Below are positions 13,272-36,531 of a DNA stretch of 64,000 nucleotides, piece after piece. The position numbers were made by a program, and so were the translations under genes. Each line of letters starts with the position of its first letter. Position 1 is the first letter of the stretch. Source of the DNA: Thermomicrobiales bacterium (GTDB taxonomy: Bacteria; Chloroflexota; Chloroflexia; Thermomicrobiales; UBA6265); NCBI GenBank assembly GCA_019637585.1, contig JAHBVL010000002.1, forward strand, positions 124,001-188,000. The letters are read 5' to 3'. The notes beneath the pieces are model-generated. The model had not been told where the DNA came from and did not search any database. It saw only the letters and a program-made list of their open reading frames with translations.

Positions 13272-14666
13272 TCAAAGAGGAACCAACTGCTCCTCGGTGG
13301 GCTCTGCTCAGCAGTACCATGGTTCGCTGAGCTGTGGGACGGCGGGATAACCGAATCCTTCGCGCAATTTGGGTCGCGATCCCGACGTGCCAGTCAATCT
13401 GGTGGCTGTGCGCCAGATGCGCTCGCAGGTTTCGCGACGTGGCGCTTCTCGTTGCTGGTCTTCCTGGATGATCGTCAGAACGCTCTGGTGCAACTCGTCC
13501 ATGCGAGGATCGGGATGGTTCCATGGATAGACGAGCGCGAAGGGATCAAAGGGTTCGATGACTGCCTGGGTTTCCGGCAGTTCGAGCAAGCGGGAGCCCG
13601 ACGGAATCAGCAACCTGATGCCGTACTGAATGGGGGAGACGTTCTCGATCAGATCGAGGTTGGCGAGCGTTTCCAGCAGCTCGACATATCCCTCGGCGGT
13701 CGTCCAGGGCGTGAAGGTGACGAAGGTGGGATTGAGCGGCAGACCAAGCTGCCGGGTCGACTGAACGACCAGCTCGAATTCCTCGCGGGTGTGGCGTTTG
13801 TCGAGAATCTCCAGGACTCGCTCGTCGATCGATTCGACGGCCGAGGTGATCATGGCGCAGCCGGTGTCGCGCAGTACCGGCAACAGCTCTTGCTGGCGCA
13901 CCAGGTGTTCGACTTTGATGGTCACGTCGTAGGAGAGCGTGGGCCAGCGGTCGTGCAGCGCCTCGACGATGCGACGGGCGTGTCCGGGGCCATTGAAGAA
14001 ATCCGGATCGCCGAAGGTGATGTGTTCCGCTCCGGCCGCCACTTGCTGCTCGATATCGGCGAGCACGACATCGGCGCTGATGGCGAAGAAGCGTCCGCCG
14101 TAGACCGGCACCACCGGGCAATGGCGGCAGAGGTGCTTGCAGCCGCGCGTCGTTTCGGTATAGCCGGTGATGCGCCGTCTGCCGTCTGCTGTGGTGATGT
14201 ACGCGTACTGGGGGAGTCCCGGCAATCCGTGACGATCGGGTACCCGGAACTGGAGCCGGTCCAGGGAAAGCGGGGCATCACGTTGCGGAGCCGTGGGATC
14301 GTCGCGCAGGCGGTTGAGCATGGCGACCAGACCCGGCTCGAATTCGCCGCCCAGCACCGTGCCGGCGCCGATCGAACGGAAGAGGGGTTCATTGACCGCG
14401 GCATAGAGACCGAAAAAGCAGAGATGCGCATCGGGATTCACCTCGCGCACCCGTTGGGCCATGCGCAGCGCAATGCGCGTTGCGGTATGCATCGGCACGG
14501 AGAAGCAGACGACATCCGCCCATTTGATGGTGCCGGCATCGAGTTTCTGGATGGCCAGATCGAGGCAGCGGACGTTGGCTCCCGCACCGGTCAGCCAGGC
14601 AGCGGCTGAACCAACGGCGAACGACTGCCGGCCAAGCTCGTAGGTTGAAACGATCGCTACGTTCAT
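13272..14666 (-). CDS. Radical SAM selenoprotein with C-terminal Cys-Sec-Ala-Glu-Pro tail
   Basis: A 464-residue radical SAM enzyme if the in-frame TGA at 13308-13310 (codon 453) is read as selenocysteine. An N-terminal cobalamin-binding-like region (1-120) precedes the [4Fe-4S] motif C176-KHL-C180-RH-C183 in ETTRGCKHLCRHCP, and a TIM-barrel core with FGDPDFFNG and SAVESIDERVLEILDKRHT. The codons around the TGA are TGC TGA GCA GAG CCC, giving C-U-A-E-P, followed by TEEQLVPL and a TGA stop at 13272. A SECIS-like hairpin follows the recoded codon. I recall a family named for a CUAEP/CCAEP tail; this matches it exactly. ATG 14666 gives the family-like start MNVAIVSTYELGRQSF but has a weak ribosome site. 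It is divergent from a DsrE-like gene. The substrate is unknown. Confidence 0.88.
13277..13295 (-). promoter_or_regulatory. Bacterial SECIS-like hairpin
   Basis: Twelve nt after the TGA, GAGGAGC pairs with GGTTCCTC-type bases (7 pairs including one G-U) around the loop AGTTG. The apical loop starts 19 nt after the TGA and shows GU, as needed for SelB recognition in known bacterial SECIS elements. Confidence 0.7.
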
Positions 14667-14796
14667 GAAGCGATGGTAGCCCCTTCTCGCCGTTCGTGCC
14701 GCTCGTGGGAGAATGAGGGGACTCCCGGAATGGGTCCGGTCGAGTCGTGCCCGGGGTTCACGGGTCTGGTTCATAACGAAGAAGGGAAGCATCTCT

Positions 14797-15174
14797 GTGA
14801 AAGTCGCCTATGTGTTCACCACCTCCGGACATACAGCCAGCTACAAGCTGGGCAAAATGATTCTGCCTCAGCTGGAGAGCGGCACCCATGGTGTCGAGGT
14901 CGTGGGAATGATGTTTTTCGACGACAACACCTTCATTCTGCGCAAGGGCGATCCGATGGGCGAGCGACTGGCCAAAGTGGCCAAGGAGCAGGGCATTCTG
15001 CTGATGATGTGCGACCAATGTGCGCTCGAGCGCGGTCTGGCGGAAGGGGAGTTCGGCACGGTGCCGAGTCAGTGCGTGGCGACCGGCACGGTCGAGGGCG
15101 TGGCCGTGGGCTGCTTCCCCGATCTCTATGGTGCGCTCGCCGGCAACCCGCCGGATCACGTCATTTCGCTGTAG
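14797..15174 (+). CDS. DsrE-like small protein, probable partner of the selenoprotein (SaoD-like)
   Basis: A 125-residue DsrE/DsrF-fold-like protein (KVAYVFTTSGHTASYKLGKM) with four cysteines: a C72-DQ-C75 pair in LLMMCDQCALERGL, C93 and C106. DsrE relatives carry sulfur or other chalcogens on cysteine. GTG start at 14797 with AAGGGAAG at good spacing. It is divergent from the radical SAM selenoprotein with 130 nt between starts, so shared control is likely. I recall a DsrE-related family called SaoD linked to CUAEP-tail selenoproteins and believe this is a member, but could not check. A pairing in selenium or sulfur transfer is inference. Confidence 0.75.
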   Translation: MKVAYVFTTSGHTASYKLGKMILPQLESGTHGVEVVGMMFFDDNTFILRKGDPMGERLAKVAKEQGILLMMCDQCALERGLAEGEFGTVPSQCVATGTVEGVAVGCFPDLYGALAGNPPDHVISL

Positions 15175-27140: not shown

Positions 27141-27525
27141 GAGAGATTGAATCGGTCGCCCGGCAGGGTCGATCGAACGAAGAGAAGGGCGGTCGCTGGT
27201 TCCTTCGGGAATCAGAGGAAAGTCCGAGCTGCACAGAGTCAGGGTGCCTGGTGAAAGCCAGGGAGGCGCGGCAACGCGTCGACAGTCCAGATTGGCGCGC
27301 TGATTCCAGCGCGAGAGCAACAGAAACCAACCCGCGCCGGTTCGCCGGTGGCGGCTGAAAAGGGCAATCCTCCCCGCAGCAATCTCCGATCCGGCCGTTA
27401 TCAGGTTGCTCGCCGAGGCCGAAAGTCGAGAGCCGCTGGACTTCGGTTCAGCCAGTTCCATTCGGGACTGAGAGAGATGATCGCCTGAAACAGAACTCGG
27501 CTTACTCTCTCTTCTTCAATCTCTC
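27141..27525 (+). ncRNA. rnpB: RNase P RNA, bacterial class A
   Basis: Catalytic RNA that removes tRNA 5' leaders. The universal 5' P4 region GAGGAAAGTCCGAGCT lies at 27215-27230 and the 3' P4 partner ACAGAACTCGGCTTAC at 27490-27505. The outer P1 helix is a perfect 11-bp match between 27141-27151 (GAGAGATTGAA) and 27515-27525 (TTCAATCTCTC), which sets both ends. Size about 385 nt, normal for class A. It precedes tRNA-His and tRNA-Arg. Confidence 0.95.
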
Positions 27526-35679: not shown

Positions 35680-36531
35680 ATGCCCGAACTTCCTGAAGTC
35701 GAAACCATCCGCATCGGTCTCGAATCGATGATTCGCGGCGCCCGGATCGACCATGGCGAGATCGTCGGATTCCCCGGTGTGATCGAACCGCTGGCGATCG
35801 ACCAGCTGAACGCGGCGATTGCCGGCCAACAAATCGTGGCGCTGCAGAGGCGGGCCAAGTATCTCCTCTTCGACCTGTCGAATGAGCTGACGCTCATCGT
35901 TCACCTGCGGATGACGGGGCAGTTGCTGGTGACGGAACCAACGCCGGAGCCTTCCCGCTTCGAACGCTTCAAGTTTGTTCTGCATGATGGCCGCGAGGTG
36001 CGCTACATCGACCAGCGGAAGTTCGGACGCATTTCGCTGGCCGACGCGGTCGCTCTGGAACGACTCGACCGAAACCTCGGTGTCGAACCGCTCGGTGAGG
36101 AGTTCACCGCAGCCTGGCTGGCCGATGCGCTGGCCAGGAAGGGTGGGCAGATCAAACCCGTCCTTCTCGATCAGCGAGTCATCGCCGGTATCGGCAATAT
36201 CTACGCGGACGAAGCCCTTTTTCGGTCGGGCATCCATCCGCAGTTTCCGGCGAATCGCCTGACGGAGGGGCAGATTGCCGAGCTTCACGGCAATCTTCGC
36301 TACGTTCTGAACGGTTCGATCGATCGGGGTGGGACGACCTTCTCCAGCTACCGAAATGCATCTGGCGAATCGGGGACGAATCAGCTGACGCTCCAGGTCT
36401 ATGGACTGGGCCGCGGCGATACTCCCTGTCCTCGCTGTGGCGGTCCGCTGACCTGCCTGAAAGTGGCCGGCCGGTCGAGTCATCTCTGTCCTGTCTGTCA
36501 GCAGTTGCCGAGCGATGGCCGGACGCCATAA
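35680..36531 (+). CDS. mutM: Formamidopyrimidine-DNA glycosylase
   Basis: Bifunctional 8-oxoguanine glycosylase/AP lyase, 283 residues. ATG 35680 is fixed by the required start MPELPEVETI with catalytic Pro2 and Glu3; upstream codons would block the active site. Also present are the catalytic Lys segment RRAKYLLFDL, LRMTGQL, VIAGIGNIYADEALFRSGIHP, the helix-two-turn-helix, and the C-terminal zinc finger CPRCGGPL-x-CPVC with four Cys. Confidence 0.97.
   Translation: MPELPEVETIRIGLESMIRGARIDHGEIVGFPGVIEPLAIDQLNAAIAGQQIVALQRRAKYLLFDLSNELTLIVHLRMTGQLLVTEPTPEPSRFERFKFVLHDGREVRYIDQRKFGRISLADAVALERLDRNLGVEPLGEEFTAAWLADALARKGGQIKPVLLDQRVIAGIGNIYADEALFRSGIHPQFPANRLTEGQIAELHGNLRYVLNGSIDRGGTTFSSYRNASGESGTNQLTLQVYGLGRGDTPCPRCGGPLTCLKVAGRSSHLCPVCQQLPSDGRTP

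Follow-up and report, generated by a model that had tools for sequence, protein, structure and literature searches.

A hairpin directly behind an in-frame UGA codon in a radical-SAM gene of a Thermomicrobiales bacterium is, as judged from sequence comparison, almost certainly a bacterial SECIS that directs the SelB-dependent insertion of selenocysteine (Sec) at this UGA. The gene is located in a stretch of 64,000 nucleotides, hereafter called the window (Table 1). We demonstrated the hairpin itself, its evolution by compensatory change, and its association with UGA as opposed to Cys codons, and we showed that the genome has the Sec machinery. Our finding is a well-supported case of a known type of signal, a genuine bacterial SECIS within an established selenoprotein family.

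Table 1. Features of the radical-SAM gene and its 3' end in the window
Feature	Position	Strand	Basis
rSAM_CUAEP radical-SAM selenoprotein gene	13272..14666	-	Matches to NF040546 and Pfam PF04055; CxxxCxxC cluster motif
In-frame UGA, putatively read as Sec	13308..13310	-	Cys-Sec pair of the ...WYCU-AEP tail; UGA or a Cys codon at the same column in homologs
12-nt spacer GCAGAGCCCACC, encoding AEPT	13296..13307	-	60 UGA homologs, aligned without gaps, have equal spacing
Bacterial SECIS hairpin (predicted), 7-bp stem GAGGAGC/GUUCCUC, loop AGUUG	13277..13295	-	Folding, homolog comparison, covariation, covariance model
True stop codon UGA	13272..13274	-	11 sense codons behind the Sec codon

The gene, its family and the Sec machinery

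The open frame 13308-14792 on the minus strand runs into the first UGA; if this codon is read, 11 more codons follow, and the end of the gene reads ...WYC-UGA-AEPTEEQLVPL-UGA. Without recoding, the gene annotation would be 12 residues short and the Sec residue would be lost. The read-through protein belongs to NF040546, the radical SAM (seleno)proteins with a CUAEP or CCAEP tail, by its score (621.3 bits; curated cut-off, 500) and its tail YCUAEP. The match crosses the UGA and reaches residue 503 of the 506 residues of the read-through protein. As NF040546 names both tails, this kind of recoding is already known, and the word CUAEP did not occur in the literature searched. Although a longer frame opens at 14792, the gene likely starts at the ATG at 14666-14664, because the NF040546 match covers the longer frame only from residue 45 on; the alignment and the structure prediction were made from this shorter start. 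The second-best family was ArsL (NF040542), with 285.1 bits against a cut-off of 450; thus, the protein is not assigned to ArsL. The predicted structure had a mean pLDDT of 94.2 and was weak at the tail (75 for residues 451-460 and 47 for the last four), and the nearest PDB structures to the predicted fold were AprD4, OxsB, and TsrM.

The genome carries selC (65.5 bits; cut-off, 47), selB (330.8; 242), selA (482.9; 268), and selD (351.9; 125), all above the curated cut-offs; selA is on the contig of the window, about 4 kb ahead of it. The presence of selA was also considered as a marker of Sec use among relatives and was rejected, since it did not separate the two forms of the gene (41 of 42 genomes with the UGA form versus 36 of 38 with the Cys form). 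Cys forms thus persist in Sec-decoding organisms.

UGA is a normal bacterial stop codon, and it could be that the codon is an ordinary stop here, with the 11 codons untranslated and the hairpin and in-frame tail due to chance or left from a decayed extension; the unremarkable single-sequence fold with flanks (see below) would fit this. However, homology runs on past the UGA, and in Cys homologs a sense codon takes its place. All 69 aligned rows share the Cys pair (U counted as C) as well as the Glu and the Pro of the tail, and the genome has the Sec machinery. We therefore consider an ordinary stop very unlikely and take the UGA as a Sec codon.

A divergent gene of the SaoD/DsrE family (14713-15174, plus strand; NF040913, 203 bits) adjoins the selenoprotein gene. 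The shared selenium pathway suggested by this adjacency was rejected, as tblastn found no homologs near the loci of 194 relatives (duplicates included). Among at most 194 loci examined, three types of neighbor recur at a few kb or less from the radical-SAM gene, namely, an ATP-grasp-like ligase (65 loci), a formyltransferase-like protein (52 loci), and a YggX-type oxidative damage protection protein (46 loci); these families were identified from scanned representatives in the homolog loci, not from the window. Elsewhere in the window, a class A RNase P RNA (27177-27520, plus strand) is followed by tRNA-His and tRNA-Arg.

The hairpin and its evolution

A preliminary description of this DNA had placed a 7-bp stem with the loop AGTTG 12 nt behind the TGA and the unpaired GU about 19 nt from it. 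We confirmed this hairpin (GAGGAGCAGUUGGUUCCUC), in which one of the seven pairs is G-U; the 5-nt loop starts at 19 nt (12 nt of spacer and 7 nt of stem), and the GU itself is at nt 21-22. The bacterial SECIS (bSECIS) model, as given in the consulted part of PMC13188914, has a loop of 3-9 nt, a stem of 4-16 bp, and a G within the first two loop positions. In the same part, the distance from the UGA to the apical loop is 16-37 nt and the minimum free energy is -7.5 kcal/mol or lower. The loop and stem lengths of the window hairpin are within these limits, the loop has a G in its first two positions followed by U, and the distance of 19 nt and the energy of -9.0 kcal/mol also agree. The whole model was passed by the window and by 78 of 117 distinct CU (Cys-Sec) tails; 39 of the 117 failed the full model including energy, and 14 had no hairpin of bSECIS geometry. 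A search of Rfam gave no family matching the hairpin, with one match far below its gathering score.

The fold of the hairpin had a z-score of -3.2 against 200 dinucleotide shuffles, two of which were equally stable. With flanks (42 nt), the z-score was only -0.98, and 31 of 200 shuffles were equally stable. The folding energy of a single sequence is evidence of moderate weight and not enough alone to settle a SECIS. When the protein was held constant, none of 300 synonymous recodings of the window tail was as stable as the observed sequence (mean, -1.9 kcal/mol). The stem, for which the preliminary description had proposed comparisons with shuffled sequence and with homologs, thus exceeded shuffled and recoded sequences, and it was also kept among the homologs, as follows.

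For covariation, we used an ungapped alignment of 60 of the 121 usable CU tails, picked for diversity and excluding the window. Changes on both sides with the pair kept were found in 80 of 420 cells, versus 40.0 ± 4.3 in shuffles, and none of 500 shuffles had as many. The covariation score was 0.447, and it was 0.069-0.208 when the partners were slid. The outermost pair was unpaired in 35 of the 60 homologs; therefore, the conserved core is nearer 5 bp. On a FastTree tree, 44 double changes over the seven stem pairs were obtained for 128 Sec rows (CU, UU, and UC); sliding the partners by 1-3 nt lowered this to 2-14. Of 595 column pairs ranked in these rows, the first four belong to the stem. 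The 56 Cys rows gave 12 double changes, versus 6-10 when slid.

A covariance model built from the 60 homologs, with the window left out, scored the window hairpin at 47.8 bits (E = 2.4e-15), a score to which both the stem and the conserved AEP codons contribute. The next match had 13.6 bits in the window (35930-35969) and 21.0 bits genome-wide; the former and the genome matches up to 21 bits look like chance and were rejected. Six loci (L238-L243), read in three frames of the given strand, contained no convincing Sec frame.

The homolog loci are from part of the genomes above the NF040546 cut-off. The tails were readable in 169 of 170 loci, of which 108 had CU, 56 CC (Cys-Cys), 3 UC, and 2 UU; L047 was dropped owing to a run of N over the tail, and L142 and L155, at contig ends, were left out of the stem counts. 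At the fixed offset, a mean of 5.6 of the seven pairs was kept in 107 UGA (CU) rows including the window, versus 3.25 in the 56 Cys (CC) rows, and sliding the UGA rows to other offsets reduced the number to 1.5-4.5. With recodings drawn from the codon use of each gene itself, 80% of the UGA rows and 9% of the Cys rows had a stem that exceeded its synonymous recodings in stability (p ≤ 0.05); the mean energy of the UGA rows was -9.1 versus -3.5 for this null, whereas that of the Cys rows was little changed by recoding. Some hairpin passing the bSECIS model, mostly at another offset, was present in 14 of 54 Cys tails. The stem is thus kept by compensatory change in genes with UGA and relaxed in those with Cys.

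The proposal that the sequence is constrained as both RNA and protein was borne out in the loop. The loop G (index 23) is present in all 107 UGA rows versus 33 of the 56 Cys rows, and the next position is U or G in all 107. Where the loop codon encodes Gln, it is CAG in 100 of 100 UGA rows, versus 31 CAG and 19 CAA in Cys rows.

These data bear on two further explanations. If the stem were a by-product of protein conservation, the AEPTEEQLAP tail would encode complementary runs by chance and the RNA would have no role. The tail is indeed conserved in Cys relatives too, with AEP and Gln nearly invariant, and three Cys relatives retain the hairpin; however, synonymous recoding destroys the stem in UGA rows with little change in Cys rows, compensatory changes rise above the slid controls only with UGA, and the CAG codon is fixed only with UGA, which makes a by-product highly improbable. 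Alternatively, the UGA could be read as Cys or Trp, with the hairpin enhancing read-through nonspecifically. RNA structures can have such an effect, and relatives have Cys at the site. Against this, the loop is specifically of the GU-type bSECIS, with G and then U or G in every UGA row, and tRNA-Sec, SelA, SelB, and SelD are all present; we regard insertion of another amino acid as extremely unlikely. In our judgment, the comparative sequence evidence for the hairpin as a SECIS is decisive.

Four individual relatives deserve mention. Three that encode Cys (L105, L107, and L114) have a near-intact SECIS (33-37 bits with the covariance model), as if Sec had been lost recently. In L041 (2869-2908, plus strand), a UAG at the base of the hairpin, five codons behind the Sec-UGA, cuts the coding tail short; the hairpin (GGGCC GGUCG GGUCC) is kept past the UAG and is not more stable than synonymous recodings.

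Tails with a shifted or doubled UGA

We searched 56 genomes of the order of one relative (G400; the named records are Chloroflexota). Among 30 loci (L199-L228), 25 were readable, 15 with CU, 6 with UC, and 4 with UU, and seven of the 25 repeat loci already in the homolog set; L227 and L228 (fragments) and L204-L206 (no match) were excluded. The UU tails (UGA-UGA; L059, L062, L221, and L223) are from four genomes and the UC tails (UGA-Cys; L090, L095, L122, L219, L222, and L225) from six genomes of this same order. A pattern scan for more such tails in 396 genomes of the class of G400 gave seven matches; six were already known, and the seventh (L245) was rejected, as it was unrelated to the gene by tblastn. 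These tails in one order are new here. The name of NF040546 covers CU and CC only, and the consulted part of PMC13188914, a review of prokaryotic selenoproteins, contains no UU motif.

The hairpin of the UU and UC tails is unmoved relative to the second codon of the pair; thus, the Sec codon of the UC tails is 3 nt further off. The covariance model gave 33-37 bits for the UU hairpins and 22-27 bits for the UC hairpins, the lower values being at least partly due to the model expecting UGA at its first three positions. Most of the hairpins are weaker than the bSECIS threshold, with -7.5 kcal/mol or lower in one of four UU and none of six UC tails. tRNA-Sec was above the cut-off in all ten genomes, and selB was present in all five searched for it.

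The UC rows fall into a single clade, with a support of 99 in FastTree and of 98/96 in IQ-TREE (46 selected rows). The UU rows are placed around it, and all ten group together with weaker support (94; 86/86). This topology, in which the root was not inferred, suggests CU to UU to UC as the simplest order of change. We consider it somewhat probable that one unmoved SECIS decodes both adjacent UGAs as Sec-Sec in the UU tails, and that double Sec was the bridge to the upstream shift in UC. If so, the bacterial SECIS-UGA spacing would be loose by 3 nt, and Sec could relocate while its signal stays put. The UU and UC relatives are a natural series on how tightly SECIS spacing sets the recoded UGA.

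Possible decoding and comparison with known systems

From the sequence data, we infer SelB binding and Sec insertion into the protein. When the ribosome reaches the UGA, SelB with Sec-tRNA-Sec and GTP would bind the AGUUG loop and the upper stem and, from its position 19 nt downstream, would bring Sec into the A site in place of termination. Thereafter, the ribosome would melt the hairpin, translate it within ...PTEEQLVPL, and stop at the second UGA. The predicted product is a radical-SAM enzyme, ArsL-related by profile, that ends in a Cys-Sec pair. This pair probably serves to bind or hand over a soft substrate (a metalloid or metal) or as a redox couple. Such a role is a guess drawn from the remote similarity to ArsL, whose predicted target is arsenite. 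The covariation and the contrast between Sec and Cys forms confirm a widespread radical-SAM family translated through a short SECIS, where RNA and protein constraints overlap.

The preliminary description had likened the geometry to that of the E. coli fdhF SECIS. Both are coding-region hairpins directly behind the UGA with an unpaired GU at the apex. The fdhF stem has a bulged U. The window hairpin, compared by description, is shorter and without this bulge; thus, the likeness holds for the general bacterial model and not for fdhF in detail. Against the bSECIS consensus, as far as given in the consulted part of PMC13188914, the window agrees in all features (5-nt loop, 7-bp stem, G then U, 19 nt, and -9.0 kcal/mol) with no essential difference; its stem is perfect and short, and the lower stem varies across the family.

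The window protein shares the Cys-Sec pair and the AEP tail with NF040546 (rSAM_CUAEP). The short name of ArsL, rSAM_RCCLKC, implies a vicinal-Cys motif as a likeness, although the protein is not filed as ArsL, being under its cut-off. ArsL, an enzyme of arsinothricin, has a predicted role in transferring the 3-amino-3-carboxypropyl group from SAM onto arsenite, according to the consulted part of PMC8552651. Finally, the GUGUU motif of algal PDI_e has two consecutive Sec residues, as described in the consulted part of PMC7539508, and shares Sec-Sec with the UU relatives; PDI_e is eukaryotic, whereas the UU tails are accompanied by one local bacterial hairpin.
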